Assembly: GCF_001402875.1 (NCBI RefSeq) | Contig: NZ_CP012946.1 | Span: 3,264,001 to 3,328,000 of the forward strand | DNA length: 64,000 bases | DNA from: Blastochloris viridis | Lineage (GTDB): Bacteria > Pseudomonadota > Alphaproteobacteria > Rhizobiales > Xanthobacteraceae | Direction: 5' to 3' | Notes under the pieces: generated by a model | Told to the model about the DNA's origin: nothing | What the model saw: only the letters and a program-made list of their open reading frames with translations | Database searches by the model: none | Part shown: positions 38,649 through 45,272 of the stretch, piece by piece | Numbering within the stretch: position 1 is the stretch's first letter | Layout of the letters: each line of letters begins with the position of its first letter | Program-made: the position numbers and the translations under genes

Positions 38649-40649
38649 ATGACCGAGATCGCATATGGAGTCTGGGACGGTGTCGTGTACGACAACCGCC
38701 CGGGAATGTTGGCGTCCGCGGACCGTCCCGTGCCGCCGACGCTGACCAATTTCGACGTGTTCGACGACGACAACCGCATTCGCGCCTTCTTCGGCGACCG
38801 GGGCTTCTTCATCTTCGACACCGGCGTCGGCCTGATCGACGCGCTGTGGCGGCAGATGGCGGAGGCCGCCGACCAGAGTTGCGGAAAATGCACGCCGTGC
38901 CGGATGGGCACCGTGCTGGTGCGCGATGCGCTCGACACCATCCGCCACGGCGGCAAGGCCAGGCTGTCGCTCGACGAGATCGCGACGCTGGCCGAGCAGA
39001 TGACCGCGACCTCGATGTGCGGCCTCGGCCAGACCTGCGCCAAGCCGCTGCTGGCGGCACTGCGCCATTTTCGCGATGTCGTCGACGGCGAACTCAAGCG
39101 CGGCCCGCAGCGCGAGCCCAATGGCCTGACCTACCTGACCGCGCCGTGCATCGAGGCCTGCCCCTCGCGCATCAACGTGCCGCGCTACATCGACTTCATC
39201 CGCGACGGCAAGCCGGAGCATTCGCTCGGCGTGATCTTGCAGAAATACCCGATGGCGGCGACCTGCGGCCGCGTCTGCGTCAGGTTCTGCGAGATGGCGT
39301 GCCGGCGCAAGATGGTCGACGAGGCGGTCGGCATCAAGACGCTGAAGCGCTACGTTGCCGACCAGCAGAAGAGTGGTCAGGCGCTCACCTTCGGCCGCGA
39401 GCTGATCGCCCATCCCCTGAGCCAGGACATGCGGGTGGCAGTGGTCGGCGCCGGGCCGGCGGGGCTGTCGTGCGCCTACCACCTGCTCCTGCACGGCTAT
39501 CGCGTCGACATTCTGGAAGCGATGGGCGAAGCCGGCGGCATGGCCGCCATCGGCATCCCGAGCTACCGCCTGCCCAAGGACGTGCTGCGATCGGAGACCG
39601 ACATCATCGCCGCGCTCGGCGGCCGCTTCCTGTTCAACCACGAGCTTGGGCGCGACGTCTCGATCGACGATCTGTTCGCGCGCGGCTACCGCGCGGTGTT
39701 CCTGGCGCTGGGCTGCCAGCAGGGCAGCCGGCTCGGAGTCGCCGGCGAGGACCCAACTGTAGCCGGCTACGAATCCGGCATCGATTTCCTGCTCGACGTG
39801 CACGACCACGTCGCCGGCACCCGCACCATCACGCTGTCCGGCGACGTGGTGGTGGTCGGCGGCGGCAACGTGGCGATGGACTGCGCGCGCTCGGCGCTGC
39901 GCATGGGCGCCGACACCGTCCACATCGTCTATCGCCGAACCCGCGAGGACATGCCCGCCGATGCCGACGAGATCGAGGCGGCGCTGGCCGAGGGCATTCG
40001 CTTCCACTACCTCGCCACCCCGATGCGCATCCTGGTCGAGGACCGCCGCATCGCCGGGGTGGAGCTGATCCGGATGCGGCGCACCGCGCCGGACGGCCGC
40101 GGCCGGCGCAACGTCGAGCCGGAGCCGGACACCGAGACCATCCTGCCCTGCACCACGCTGATCGCCGCCATCGGCCAGCAGATCAAGAAGGACGCGCTGC
40201 GCCCGGAGGACGGCATCAGCCTCGACCGCTGGAATTGCGTCGCGGTCGATCCGGTGGATCTTGCCACCTCGCGGCCCGGCGTGTTCGCCGGCGGCGACTG
40301 CTCGTCCGGCCCCTCGACGCTGATCCACGCCATGGCCGCCGGCCTCAAGGCGACGCGCAGCATCGACGACTGGATCCGGCTCGGCTACGTGCGCTTCCGT
40401 CCGCGCTCGCGGATGCGACGGCTGCTCAACGACAACAGGATGCTGGCCGACGACGCCGTCGAGGTGCCGGTGAAGCCGCAGTACCGCGTCCACCACCCTG
40501 AGCTCGACCCCAATGTGCGAACAGGGATGTTCGAGGAGGTCGAGCAGACCATCTGCGCCGAGGAGGCCTATCGCGAGGCCAAGCGCTGCATGCGCTGCTA
40601 CCGCATTTACTCGGTGATCACCGAGCAGCCGATCCCGGAGGGAGCATGA
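38649..40649 (+). CDS. Fusion of truncated NuoF-type Fe-S domain with GltD/NfnB-like NAD(P)H oxidoreductase; hydrogenase partner
   Basis: A 666-residue iron-sulfur flavoprotein. Residues about 20-150 match only the C-terminal [4Fe-4S] part of NuoF/HydB (Cys78, 81, 84 in SCGKCTPCR and a later MCGLGQTC); the FMN/NADH Rossmann part is missing. The rest is GltD/NfnB-like: Cys motifs APCIEACPSRINVP and CGRVCVRFCEMAC, FAD site VVGAGPAGLSCAYHL (about 261), nucleotide site VVVGGGNVAMDCARSALRMG (about 400) with YRRTREDMPA (Arg pair suggesting NADPH), and GVFAGGDC. A final CMRCYR may bind another cluster. It overlaps the hydrogenase gene by 4 bases (ATGA). It probably passes electrons between NAD(P)H and the hydrogenase. 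Confidence 0.88.
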   Translation: MTEIAYGVWDGVVYDNRPGMLASADRPVPPTLTNFDVFDDDNRIRAFFGDRGFFIFDTGVGLIDALWRQMAEAADQSCGKCTPCRMGTVLVRDALDTIRHGGKARLSLDEIATLAEQMTATSMCGLGQTCAKPLLAALRHFRDVVDGELKRGPQREPNGLTYLTAPCIEACPSRINVPRYIDFIRDGKPEHSLGVILQKYPMAATCGRVCVRFCEMACRRKMVDEAVGIKTLKRYVADQQKSGQALTFGRELIAHPLSQDMRVAVVGAGPAGLSCAYHLLLHGYRVDILEAMGEAGGMAAIGIPSYRLPKDVLRSETDIIAALGGRFLFNHELGRDVSIDDLFARGYRAVFLALGCQQGSRLGVAGEDPTVAGYESGIDFLLDVHDHVAGTRTITLSGDVVVVGGGNVAMDCARSALRMGADTVHIVYRRTREDMPADADEIEAALAEGIRFHYLATPMRILVEDRRIAGVELIRMRRTAPDGRGRRNVEPEPDTETILPCTTLIAAIGQQIKKDALRPEDGISLDRWNCVAVDPVDLATSRPGVFAGGDCSSGPSTLIHAMAAGLKATRSIDDWIRLGYVRFRPRSRMRRLLNDNRMLADDAVEVPVKPQYRVHHPELDPNVRTGMFEEVEQTICAEEAYREAKRCMRCYRIYSVITEQPIPEGA

Positions 40650-42496
40650 CCATGGCCACCCACACCGTTGCCGCGGCGGAGGTGACCTATTTCGAGGCCA
40701 CCATCAACGGCGCGCCGATCACCGGCCGCTCCGACGAATCGATCCTGGCCTGTGCCCGTCGCCACGGCGTCTATATCCCGACGCTGTGCGAACTCGCCGA
40801 TATCGACCACACCCCCGGCACCTGCCGGGTGTGCCTGGTCGAGATCCAAACCCAGGGCAGCGGCAAGACCCACCTCGTCACCTCCTGCACCACGCCGATG
40901 CAGGTCGGGCTCGAGATCTGGACCCGCACGCCGGAGGTGCGCGAGAAGCAGCGCCTGCAGGTCGAGCTGCTGCTCGCCGATCACGACCAGGACTGCGCCA
41001 CCTGCATCCGCCACGGCCGCTGCGACCTGCAGGACGTCGCCCAGTTCGTCGGCCTGCGCCAAAACCGCTTTCATGACCCGGCGCGGGTGGCGATGCGGCC
41101 GATCGATGATTCCTCGCCCGCCTTGATCCGCAACATGAAGCGCTGCATCCGCTGCCAGCGCTGCATCGCGGTGTGCCGCGACGGCCAGGGCGTCGACGCG
41201 CTGATCCAGATCGGCACCGGGCTCGACACTGCGGTCGGGCTGCGCCACGGCCTGACGCAGAAGAACTCGGCCTGCGTCAGTTGCGGCCAGTGCGTCTTGG
41301 TGTGCCCGACCGGCGCGCTGGGCGAGCGCGACGAAACCGACCGCGCGCTGGAGATGATGTACGATCCCGAACTGGTCACCGTCGCCGAGTTCGCGCCGGC
41401 GGTGCGGGTCGGCTTCGGCGAGGAGTTCGGCCTGCCGCCCGGCACCAATGTCGAGGGCCAGATCATCACCGCGCTGCGCAAGCTCGGCGCCGACATCGTG
41501 CTCGATACCAATTTCGGCGCCGACCTCGTCATCATGGAGGAAGGCACCGAGCTGCTGCAACGCCTCGCCGAGAAGAAGCGCCCGACCTTCTCGTCGTGCT
41601 GCCCGGCCTGGATCAATTTCGCCGAGCGGCATTACCCGGACATCCTGCCGCTGCTCTCGACCACCAAGTCGCCGCAGCAATGCGTCGGCGCGCTGGCCAA
41701 GACCTATCTGCCCGAGAAGATGGGCATCGATCCCAGACGCATCCGCGTCATCTCGATCATGCCGTGCACCGCAAAGAAGGACGAGATCGCCCGCCGCCAG
41801 CTCCGCCACGACGGCATTGCTGAGGTCGACGTGGTGCTGACCACCCGTGAGTTCTCGCGCCTGCTCCGGCGCGAGGGCATCGACCTCAAGACGCTGGAGC
41901 CGTCGGCGTTCGACAACCCCTATATGAGCGAATACACCGGCGCCGGCGCCATCTTCGGCACCACCGGCGGGGTGATGGAGGCGGCGGTGCGGACGATGTA
42001 CTACGTCGTCAACGGCCGCGAGCTGCCGAGCGTCGAGCTGGAGCAGTTGCGCGGTTTCGACGGCGTGCGCACCGCCACCGTCGACCTCGGCGGCGATGTC
42101 GGCGAGGTGAAGGTGGCGATGTGCCATGGCCTCAAGCCGACGCGACAGATCGTCGAGGCGGTGCGCAGCGGTAGCGCCGATTTCGACTTCATCGAAGTGA
42201 TGGCCTGCCCCGGCGGCTGCGTCGACGGCGGCGGCTCGCTGCGCTCCAAGAAGCAATACCTGCCGCACGCGCTGAAGCGCCGCGAGACGCTGTTCGGCAT
42301 CGACCGCAAGCGCGCGGTGCGCCAGTCCCATCACAACAAGCAGGTGCAGGCGCTCTATCGCGATTTCCTCGGCAGCCCGAACTCGCACAAGGCCCACGAG
42401 CTGCTGCACACCTGGTACAGCGACCGCAGGATCGAGATGAACCAGACCGTCCGTGAGATCTGGGCCGACATCAAGATGACGGGAAAGGTGTATTGA
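40646..42496 (+). CDS. [FeFe] hydrogenase catalytic subunit, NAD(P)-linked (group A, M3-type)
   Basis: A 616-residue enzyme that makes or oxidises H2. An N-terminal [2Fe-2S] domain (about 10-90), a His-Cys3 cluster site (HDQDCATCIRHGRC, about 110), and two [4Fe-4S] ferredoxin motifs (CIRCQRCIAVC, CVSCGQCVLVCPTGA) precede the H-cluster domain. H-cluster ligands Cys319 (SSCCPAW), Cys374 (MPCTAKKDE), Cys521 and Cys525 (MACPGGCVDGGG) are all present, as is the proton-relay Cys318; the spacing resembles clostridial CpI. The gene is coupled to the upstream GltD-like fusion, resembling glutamate-synthase-linked group A2 hydrogenases. Maturation genes hydEFG are not in the window. Confidence 0.95.
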   Translation: MTMATHTVAAAEVTYFEATINGAPITGRSDESILACARRHGVYIPTLCELADIDHTPGTCRVCLVEIQTQGSGKTHLVTSCTTPMQVGLEIWTRTPEVREKQRLQVELLLADHDQDCATCIRHGRCDLQDVAQFVGLRQNRFHDPARVAMRPIDDSSPALIRNMKRCIRCQRCIAVCRDGQGVDALIQIGTGLDTAVGLRHGLTQKNSACVSCGQCVLVCPTGALGERDETDRALEMMYDPELVTVAEFAPAVRVGFGEEFGLPPGTNVEGQIITALRKLGADIVLDTNFGADLVIMEEGTELLQRLAEKKRPTFSSCCPAWINFAERHYPDILPLLSTTKSPQQCVGALAKTYLPEKMGIDPRRIRVISIMPCTAKKDEIARRQLRHDGIAEVDVVLTTREFSRLLRREGIDLKTLEPSAFDNPYMSEYTGAGAIFGTTGGVMEAAVRTMYYVVNGRELPSVELEQLRGFDGVRTATVDLGGDVGEVKVAMCHGLKPTRQIVEAVRSGSADFDFIEVMACPGGCVDGGGSLRSKKQYLPHALKRRETLFGIDRKRAVRQSHHNKQVQALYRDFLGSPNSHKAHELLHTWYSDRRIEMNQTVREIWADIKMTGKVY

Positions 42497-42664: not shown

Positions 42665-43645
42665 TTACCCCTCGAAATAAAACCCGTCCCCCGGAAGCTG
42701 GCCGCCGATCAAGGCCGGCGACAGCTCGGCCAGCGCCGACAGGAACGCCTCGATCGCCGGCCGCGCCTCACGCGCAGCGATGACGGTGGCATCGCCTTGC
42801 GCCAACGCCAGTTTGGTCGCGGCGGCAGGAAAGCCCATGCGCGCCTCAGCCAGCGCCGCGGCTGCCGCCGGCTCGGCCTTCACCCACGCGACCGCGTCGG
42901 CCGTGGCCCGGTGCAGCGCCCGCACCGCATCGGGTGCTTGGTCGGCAAACGATGCCGTCACCGCCAGCCCGGCCATCGGCAGAAAGGCCGCGCTGCCGGT
43001 CTGCTCGGCCCAGGCCGATTGCAGCGTGAACGCCCGCCGCAGCTTGAGGCCGGCTTTCGCCGCTGCCAGCAGCGCCGCGCTCGCGATCGGCTCGTTGAGC
43101 AGCACGGTCGAGGCGCGGCCGGCCAGCACCAGCTGCGTTGCCTCCGTGGCCGAGCCGGCATAATCGAGCGTCACGTCCTGGTCCGGCACCAGCCCGGCCG
43201 TCTTCAACAGCCAGCGCAGCGACACATCCGGCATATCATTGCGGAAATAGAGCTGGACGTGCTTGCCCTTGAGGTCGGCAAGGCGATTGACCGCCGGGTC
43301 GACACTGAGCACGTGCATGTGGCCGGCGCTGATCACCGACACCAGCTTCAGCTTCAAGCCGCGGCTGTCGAGGTTGGCGGCAACGTTGGTCGGCAAACTG
43401 ACCGCCGTCGCCTCGCCCGACACCAGCGCGGCGCGCAGCTGGTCGGGGCTGCGCCACACCGCAAACGAGGCGCCCGCGGTCGCCAGGGCGGCGCTTTCGA
43501 CCGCCCGCGCGATCAGGATCGAGGCGGTGCTCGGCGCCGCCAGGATCGACAGGCCCGGCGCCGCGGCGGCGGCGAGCGGGGCGGCGGCGAGGCCACCCAG
43601 CGCGGCGAGCGCGGCGCGGCGGGTGAAGGCGCGCGATGCGGTCAT
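42665..43645 (-). CDS. ABC-transporter substrate-binding protein (NMT1/SsuA/ThiY-like), Tat-type signal
   Basis: A 326-residue exported protein. The signal peptide contains [22 protein letters not shown], a twin-arginine-like pattern. The mature NMT1/SsuA-type binding fold has [48 protein letters not shown] and [15 protein letters not shown]. Typical ligands of the family are sulfonates, nitrate or thiamine precursors; the ligand here is unknown. No permease or ATPase gene is adjacent, so it is an orphan. The ATG overlaps the aroQ stop (ATGA). Confidence 0.83.
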
Positions 43646-44103
43646 GCCGTGCCTCGCGGCGTGGCGATGCCGAGGTGGTTGGCGATGGCCTCGAGCGCGA
43701 TCTGGTAGCCGAACGGCCCGAAGCCGCAGATCATGCCCACCGCCACCTTGGAGATGTAGGATTGGTGGCGGAACGGCTCGCGCCGGTGGATGTTCGACAG
43801 GTGGACCTCGATCACCGGCAGCTCGACGCTGGAAATGGCGTCCATGATGGCGATCGAGGTGTGGGTGTAGGCGCCGGCGTTGAGGACGATGCCGGCATGC
43901 GTGCCGCGCGCGGCGTGGATCCAGTCGATCAGGGTCCCTTCGCCGTTCGACTGGCGGAAATCGACGGCAAGGCCGAGCGTGTCCGCCTTGGCCCGGCAGT
44001 CGCGTTCGATGTCGGCGAGCGTCGCCCGGCCATAGACCTCCGGCTGCCGGGTGCCCAGCAGGTTGAGGTTCGGCCCATTGAGGATGAGGACGGACGGGGT
44101 CAT
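43642..44103 (-). CDS. aroQ: Type II 3-dehydroquinate dehydratase
   Basis: Shikimate-pathway enzyme converting 3-dehydroquinate to 3-dehydroshikimate. The 153 residues begin [23 protein letters not shown], with the catalytic tyrosine in that segment. [29 protein letters not shown] and [18 protein letters not shown] (catalytic His) follow. It leads a coupled pair with the substrate-binding protein. Confidence 0.96.
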
Positions 44104-44240
44104 GGTGCGATCGCAATTGGCTGACAGGGCTAACGGGCCAGCATTGGCCGGCCGCGGGCAGAAGTCCATCCCGGCGATCCGCTGAAGCTCGGCGGCACGA
44201 ACTGGTCTATAGTGCCTGACCATCATCCCCGAGTTGCTCC

Positions 44241-45272
44241 ATGACCTCCGGCAAAACCCCGCCCGGCAATACCCCGCCGGGCACCACGCCCCCCGGTCGC
44301 GAGCCGGCCAAGGCGGCGCGGGCCGGCCGGCGCCGCGGCACCGCCGTGTTGCCGGCGGCCGAGCCGATCGCCGATCTGCCCAAGCCCACCGCCGCCGCCC
44401 CGCCCGCCCAGCCCAGGCTGGAGCCGGCGAACGACCCCCAATCGCTAGCGCTGGTGCTCGGCGGCGGCGGCGCGCGCGGCCTCGCCCACCTTGCCGTGCT
44501 GGAGGCGCTGGACGAGCTCGGCGTGGTGCCGGCTATGATCGCCGGCACCTCGATCGGCGCGCTGATCGGCTCGGCCTACGCCTCCGGCATCCCGGCCAAG
44601 GACATCCGCCACCATCTCGTCCACAGCTTCCGCGACCGCGGCGGCATGCTGCAAAAGCTGATCGCCGCCCGGGTCGGGCGCTTCGTCGATCTGCTCTCGG
44701 CCGGGCTCGGCAATCCGGTGCTGGTCAATGGCGAGACGCTGTTCGCCGCGTTCCTGCCGGACGGGCTGAAGAGCGATTTCGCCGAGCTGACGATTCCGCT
44801 GGCGGTGGTGGCGACCGATTTTTACGCCCGCGCCGCGGTGTCGTTCACCGAAGGGCCGCTGCTGCCGACGGTCGCGGCCTCGGCCGCGGTGCCGGGCCTG
44901 GTGCGGCCGCTCGAGATCAGCGGCCGCATCTTCATCGACGGCGCCGCCACCGATCCGGTGCCGGTGTCCGCCGTCGCCGGCCGGGCGCGCTACGTGCTGG
45001 CGGTCGACGTCACCGGCCGGCCGACCGGCGATGTCGGCGCCATGCCGGCGGCGCTGGAGGCGACGTTCGCCGCCGCCCAGATCATGCAGGCGGTGATCGC
45101 GGCGGAAAAGCTGCGCCGCCACCCGCCCGACATTCTGGTGAGGCCGAACGTCGACGTGTTCGGCCTGATCGACTTTTTGCAGACCCACGCCATCCTGCGC
45201 GCGGCAGAACCGGTGAAGGACGAGGTCAAGCGCCGCGTCGCGGCGCTGCTCGATGTCGCGATCAAGGCGTGA
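44241..45272 (+). CDS. Patatin-like phospholipase (RssA/YlbK type)
   Basis: A 343-residue protein. A proline/alanine-rich N-terminal tail (1-68) precedes the patatin domain with the oxyanion loop [17 protein letters not shown] (about 75). The nucleophile Ser104 is in GTSIGAL, and the catalytic Asp in [12 protein letters not shown] near 236. A Ser-Asp dyad is therefore intact. Related proteins are intracellular lipid acyl hydrolases; the substrate is unknown. The N-terminal tail is longer than usual. Confidence 0.9.

Follow-up and report, generated by a model that had tools for sequence, protein, structure and literature searches.

The complete genome of Blastochloris viridis contains, within the 64,000-nucleotide stretch analysed here (contig NZ_CP012946.1, positions 3,264,001 to 3,328,000; hereafter the window), a two-gene locus encoding a group A [FeFe] hydrogenase catalytic subunit (HydA) and, directly upstream of it, a partner protein in which the truncated C-terminus of NuoF is fused to a GltD/NfnB-type flavin-NADPH module. 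The genome encodes none of the maturases HydE, HydF, and HydG (HydEFG), the proteins through which the active site of [FeFe] hydrogenases is known to be built. The same pair recurs in two clades of maturase-less bacteria, in which the residues of the active site are unchanged and HydA is under purifying selection. On the strength of these sequence patterns we tentatively favour the view that the pair may still be an NADPH-linked hydrogenase, the H-cluster of which would be obtained by a route other than HydEFG. The features of the locus, in window positions, are as follows.

38649..40649, +, partner gene, truncated NuoF C-terminus fused to GltD/NfnB-type flavin-NADPH module, 666 amino acids (aa) (open reading frame (ORF), domain profiles, fold match)
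38841..39083, +, NuoF-type 4Fe-4S region, PF10589, aa 65-145, with Cys 78, 81, 84, and 124 (domain profile, partner alignment)
39138..39374, +, Fer4_20 / DPD domain II, Fe-S region, aa 164-242 (domain profile, partner alignment)
39429..40343, +, GltD-like flavin- and NADPH-binding module, Pyr_redox_2, aa 261-565, with GGGNVAMD and YRR (domain profile, fold, alignment)
40587..40598, +, C-terminal CxxC of the partner, aa 647-650 (partner alignment)
40646..40649, +, overlap of the partner and HydA genes, 4 bases (ORF coordinates)
40646..42496, +, HydA, group A [FeFe] hydrogenase catalytic subunit, 616 aa (ORF, profiles, fold match)
40697..41311, +, NuoG-like N-terminal Fe-S domains of HydA: Fer2_4, NADH-G_4Fe-4S_3, 4Fe-4S domains (domain profiles)
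41378..42232, +, H-domain of HydA, Fe_hyd_lg_C, E 7e-90 (domain profile)
41591..41611, +, L1 motif of HydA, SSCCPAW, aa 316-322 (motif, alignment)
41759..41785, +, L2 motif of HydA, MPCTAKKDE, aa 372-380 (motif, alignment)
42200..42235, +, L3 motif of HydA, MACPGGCVDGGG, aa 519-530 (motif)
42272..42427, +, Fe_hyd_SSU domain of HydA (domain profile)
42665..43645, -, NitT/TauT-type ATP-binding cassette (ABC) substrate-binding protein with an RR-type signal (by eye), a putative member of the system (family match, flanking homologues)

Much of the initial annotation of this locus, made from the sequence alone, is borne out. Both reading frames are present, HydA is full-length, bases 40646-40649 are common to the two genes, and all H-cluster cysteines are in place, the L1, L2, and L3 motifs being intact. 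The partner was correctly described as the Fe-S end of NuoF joined to a GltD-type module (PF10589, Fer4_20, and Pyr_redox_2 were matched), and the flavin/NADH part of NuoF and NuoE are indeed missing: the domain profile scan of the partner lists no NuoF flavin mononucleotide (FMN)/NADH domain, and the locus has no NuoE. A search for a sigma-70-like promoter found none (0 found vs. 0.4 expected). HydA passes the group A model TIGR02512 (508.5 bits, cut-off 405.95), stays below the cut-off of the NCBIfam model for NADH-dependent group A6, NF040763 (710 bits vs. 765), and aligns almost end to end with Acetobacterium woodii HydA1 (7q4v), 8a6t, and CpI. By the model cut-off together with its H-cluster ligand and proton-path residues it belongs to the group A sequence family, and the concern that it might group with non-hydrogenase paralogues was not realised, since it passes this cut-off and is the sole HydA of several maturase-bearing genomes (see below).

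The pair is a widespread cassette and not a rarity, because among the best 80 of 295 HydA loci of the genome collection the partner lies directly upstream of HydA in 78 (some cut by a contig end), which also excludes chance as the cause of the pairing; two Bacillota loci, L091 and L092, have no partner in this place, and the HydA frame is interrupted at loci L085 and L077. Most hosts are Alphaproteobacteria, accompanied by Beta- and Gammaproteobacteria and Desulfovibrionales, so that the initial view of the pair as unusual in an alphaproteobacterium has to be given up. Among named organisms, the nearest are Blastochloris sulfoviridis (91%) and Rhodoplanes (about 83-85%). HydA occurs in 19 of 297 sampled genomes of the host's order, and all 19 carry the cassette, the 18 non-host genomes being judged by the C-terminal part of the partner adjoining HydA. 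Cassettes about 70-75% identical to that of the window were also seen at L020, L021, L029, L040, and L077, in metagenome-assembled genomes (MAGs) labelled Eisenbacteria, Verrucomicrobium, or Acidobacteria; possibly, these MAGs are mis-binned or the cassette was transferred.

The absence of maturases, which the initial annotation had named beforehand as grounds for abandoning its interpretation, is what the profile search of the host genome (one contig, 100% complete) revealed: HydE and HydG gave no match at E 0.001, and HydF gave only matches below the cut-off (at most 74 bits vs. 325.55), while each of the three models detected Thermotoga maritima above its cut-off as a positive control. The host thus does not encode the HydE, HydF, and HydG set by which we would recognise a functional [FeFe] hydrogenase, and a working hydrogenase there cannot be taken for granted. 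An HmdB-like (TIGR03957) match considered as a maturase candidate was rejected, as it is BioB (408 bits vs. 225).

We extended the survey to 68 cassette-bearing genome entries, comprising the genomes of 49 of the 78 cassette loci (mostly isolates), the host, and 18 genomes of its order; 9 entries are duplicates by identical places, which leaves 59 distinct genomes. HydF was above cut-off in 33 entries, HydG in 32, with a fragment in G345, and HydE in 32, with G320 just under the cut-off. The pattern is all-or-none, as the same 33 entries have all three maturases and the same 35 have none (26 and 33 distinct genomes, respectively). The maturase-less hosts are Blastochloris, Rhodoplanes, Rhodovulum, Tropicimonas, Cohaesibacter and its order group, Rhodobium, Rhodopseudomonas, Aliiruegeria, a Xanthobacteraceae strain, and MAGs, while the maturase-plus hosts include Pleomorphomonas, Oryzibacter, Rhizomicrobium, Roseiarcus, Siculibacillus, Thiobaca, Rhodocyclus, Propionivibrio, Paludibacterium, Formivibrio, and others. 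That maturases escaped detection through divergence or gaps in assembly is very improbable: most of the compared genomes are drafts, but the host genome is complete in one contig, three separate models agree across all 68 entries, and the one radical S-adenosylmethionine candidate of the host that was examined is the BioB just mentioned.

In a HydA gene tree of 87 rows, built by a quick method, the maturase-less rows fall mainly into two clades. Clade A (8 rows, support 100*) is joined to Rhizomicrobium rows (87), and clade B (26 rows, support 100*, including L046 and L049, two rows outside the maturase survey) is joined to Pleomorphomonas and Oryzibacter (98*); two single maturase-less MAG rows, L021 and L045, lie outside both. 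Maturase status changes at least four times on this tree, and the joining of the maturase-less rows of A and B is rejected (p-AU 1.3e-56, for a group named after the tree was seen). Being a gene tree, it does not distinguish the loss of maturases from a transfer in which the cassette travelled without them.

The residues aligned to CpI have roles in binding the [2Fe] centre or in proton transfer in known enzymes. In an alignment of 33 sequences, 8 from clade A and 25 from clade B (L046 and L049 among the latter), of which 31 come from genomes of tested maturase status, the equivalents of CpI A230, P231, E279, E282, S298, C299, C300, W303, S319, P324, M353, C355, K358, E361, and F417 are invariant, the position equivalent to R286 is His in one sequence, and the L3 motif is intact. 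Median omega over pairs is 0.25 in clade A (28 pairs), 0.173 in clade B (85 pairs), and 0.113 in maturase-plus rows (25 pairs), the corresponding medians for the H-domain being 0.198, 0.147, and 0.115. These values indicate that purifying selection acts on maturase-less HydA, somewhat more loosely than in maturase-plus rows. That the proton path and the [2Fe] pocket are retained speaks for H2 chemistry still taking place and, by extension, for an H-cluster route other than HydEFG.

Cysteines and motifs of the partner are conserved as well. Among 74 aligned partners with 600 aa or more, drawn from the 80 loci and including the window copy, the NuoF-type Cys 78, 81, 84, and 124 and both Cys of the C-terminal CxxC are invariant (74/74), as are the six Fer4_20 Cys (167, 171, 206, 210, 214, 218) except for one gap; GGGNVAMD is conserved with one G replaced by A in 2 proteins, and so is Tyr-Arg-Arg 428-430. 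Among solved structures, its main module comes closest to transhydrogenase/formate-dehydrogenase-type complexes and to NfnI (9bov, 9n5u, 8oh5, 5jca), a resemblance that makes NADPH the likely pyridine nucleotide. By analogy with the homologous structures, electrons from NADPH would reach the GltD-type flavin, cross the partner through its Fer4_20 and NuoF-type clusters, and continue over the NuoG-like clusters in HydA to the H-domain, or take the reverse course; H2 would be made or used at the H-domain. Selection would then have kept an NADPH-linked group A [FeFe]-hydrogenase complex in a host lineage that lost, or never had, HydEFG, and the H-cluster would be assembled or obtained without them.

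The number of HydA copies bears on this proposal from two sides. In 58 genome entries counted (24 maturase-plus and 34 maturase-less), the cassette provides the sole HydA in 9 of the 24 maturase-plus genomes, and in 8 of these (all but G341) hydG lies about 10 kb or less away on the contig of the cassette; in the nine genomes the cassette HydA is presumably a HydEFG client and an H-cluster enzyme. A single HydA is likewise present in 31 of the 34 maturase-less entries, the host and B. sulfoviridis having two and MAG G338 three. The second HydA of the host (C1:534191-537838; L012:8191-11838) belongs to group A6 (813.2 bits, cut-off 765), is preceded by a fused NuoE-NuoF gene, and is also left without HydEFG. 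Its TSCSPGW motif might suggest inactivity, but the corresponding stretch of A. woodii HydA1 (7q4v), an active enzyme, reads SC-S-PGW, and this reading was therefore rejected.

Several points weigh against a hydrogenase matured without HydEFG. To our knowledge, no native HydEFG-independent route to the [2Fe] centre has been established in bacteria. Clade A alone has a fixed T-to-S change in its L1 motif (S for T of TSCCP, 8/8), and omega in the maturase-less clades exceeds that of the maturase-plus rows by a factor of about 1.5-2.2, in pairs that differ in divergence, which suggests that constraint is somewhat relaxed there. The retention of a sole HydA in 31 of the 34 maturase-less entries could mean a special, maturase-independent role. 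Furthermore, alphaproteobacterial enzymes such as that of Rhodospirillum rubrum are judged, in the passage of PMC4967309 devoted to them, to be probably inactive or of a different role.

This opinion also supports the chief alternative, to which we give serious though lesser credence, namely that the H-domain carries its [4Fe-4S] cluster only and that the pair is a non-hydrogenase complex, an NADPH:ferredoxin (or other acceptor) oxidoreductase. Such a complex would be in keeping with the lack of detectable HydEFG in the host, with the closeness of the partner module to transhydrogenase/formate-dehydrogenase-type complexes and NfnI, and with the sole HydA of most maturase-less entries. It does not readily account for the invariance of residues serving the [2Fe] centre or proton transfer, nor for the occurrence of the same protein as the only HydA in 9 maturase-bearing genomes. 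We consider it unlikely that the cassette encodes a decaying or idle hydrogenase, its maturases lost or left behind in transfer, which is useless now or active only with cofactor supplied by neighbours. The raised omega and the patchy distribution, e.g., the Rhodopseudomonas rows nested among those of Rhodovulum, fit such decay, but the maturase-less cassettes form two clades across many genera, with full-length frames and omega well under 1.

As regards maturation without HydEFG itself, hydrogenase activity without maturation factors in a bacterial host has reportedly been obtained in work on Synechocystis. That hydrogenases are able to gain activity without these factors is stated in a passage of PMC9161772 with reference to other work, the Synechocystis study included.

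The architecture of the pair sets it apart from the known systems it resembles. HydABC-type enzymes (7q4v, 8a6t), the best solved matches, contain a HydA whose Fe-S domains and H-domain match those found here; unlike in them, the GltD module replaces NuoE and the NuoF FMN/NADH module at this locus, and HydA lacks the adjoining NuoE and full NuoF of a HydABC trimer. With Stn/Nfn-type complexes (8oh5, 9bov, 9n5u, 5jca) the pair shares the flavin-NADPH module, and a NuoF-type chain is also present in 8oh5, 9bov, and 9n5u; here, in contrast, the module has a NuoF fragment joined to it and is paired with an H-domain. In the description given in PMC5037454, HydDB [FeFe] group A2 is glutamate synthase-linked (putative) and is recognised by an immediately downstream gene with a GltD-type domain and no NuoF domain. 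The proposed likeness to A2 holds in that a group A catalytic subunit stands beside a GltD-domain protein, but the partner lies upstream and carries the C-terminal Fe-S region of NuoF as a fusion, the host is without HydEFG, and the downstream gene is the opposite-strand ABC substrate-binding protein, so that the locus falls outside A2 as judged by the literal rule. A precedent for HydA without HydEFG in an alphaproteobacterium is the hydrogenase-like HydA of R. rubrum, as reported in part of PMC4967309; here the pattern is recurrent in two clades, the two cases being likened by published description and not by sequence. In certain eukaryotes, e.g., E. mutabile, HydA was likewise described without any HydEFG found, according to a passage of PMC9161772, whereas the present system is bacterial, cassette-linked, and equipped with an NADPH-type module.

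A comparison of neighbouring genes at 8 clade A, 18 clade B, and 23 maturase-plus loci, out to about 10 kb, revealed no alternative maturation gene near the cassette; ABC importer genes are the only non-cassette families common to many maturase-less loci. In the window, the binding protein of the NMT1 family (42665-43645) lies past HydA on the opposite strand, with no permease or ATPase gene beside it. Its homologues flank the cassette at all 18 long-flanked clade B loci, at 8 Pleomorphomonas loci, and at L018 and L045, and none was found near the cassette in clade A genomes except the host and L018. At the Rhodovulum locus L056, HydA is followed by binding protein, permease, and ATPase in overlapping frames, which suggests one operon.

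Of the 59 distinct genomes, 30 of the 33 without maturases and 6 of the 26 with them, the latter six all Pleomorphomonas, have a cassette-type binding protein (at least 387.9 bits). This association is not significant on the tree, which offers only 3-4 independent contrasts in few lineages, and two Cohaesibacter-group genomes (G084, G197) and MAG G338 lack both the binding protein and the maturases. Among the 297 order genomes, 13 have the cassette-type protein, all 13 with HydA, and genomes without HydA score at most 363.3 bits (at most 7 candidates per genome scored); the profile was built from cassette-flanking proteins, and the gap between 387.9 and 363.3 bits is therefore partly circular. 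Four Rhodoplanes copies outside the building set, on contigs other than that of HydA, score 453-474 bits. The structure model of the binding protein (predicted local distance difference test, pLDDT, 90.4) has the NitT/TauT fold, near 3hn0, SsuA, PqqT, and CmpA, and indicates no substrate; the protein also fails the known-substrate models SsuA_fam (29.9 vs. 163.5) and taurine_ABC_bnd (19.9 vs. 304.25). That the [2Fe] cofactor or a late precursor is imported in maturase-less lineages via this NitT/TauT-type importer and inserted into HydA strikes us as a long shot; if true, these bacteria would scavenge an organometallic cofactor made by their neighbours.

Other surroundings of this family and of the cassette were noted. 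At L183 (host C1:1475001-1495000), a more distant second member of the binding-protein family is accompanied by an apparent permease and ATPase and by genes resembling, by eye, molybdenum-related ones (ModD-like, molbindin-like). At L178, L179, and L185 (Rhodoplanes, PH10), where the cassette-type binding protein and HydA are on different contigs, the former lies near riboflavin synthase-like genes, and in L178 and L179 near lumazine synthase-like genes, again by eye. Beside the cassette in the window are two ordinary genes, one for type II dehydroquinate dehydratase (aroQ, 43642-44226) and one of patatin-like phospholipase type (44241-45272, below its model cut-off).

The two-clade, all-or-none maturase pattern, of which we found no report in the open-licence literature, is new here, as are the unchanged active site and the co-occurrence of the importer. 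An active site kept intact through two maturase-less clades, with culturable hosts such as Blastochloris, Rhodovulum, and Rhodopseudomonas, would mean either that the cofactor is made or acquired by a different route or that the H-domain has been put to a new use. The pattern bears on the same puzzle in anaerobic eukaryotes.

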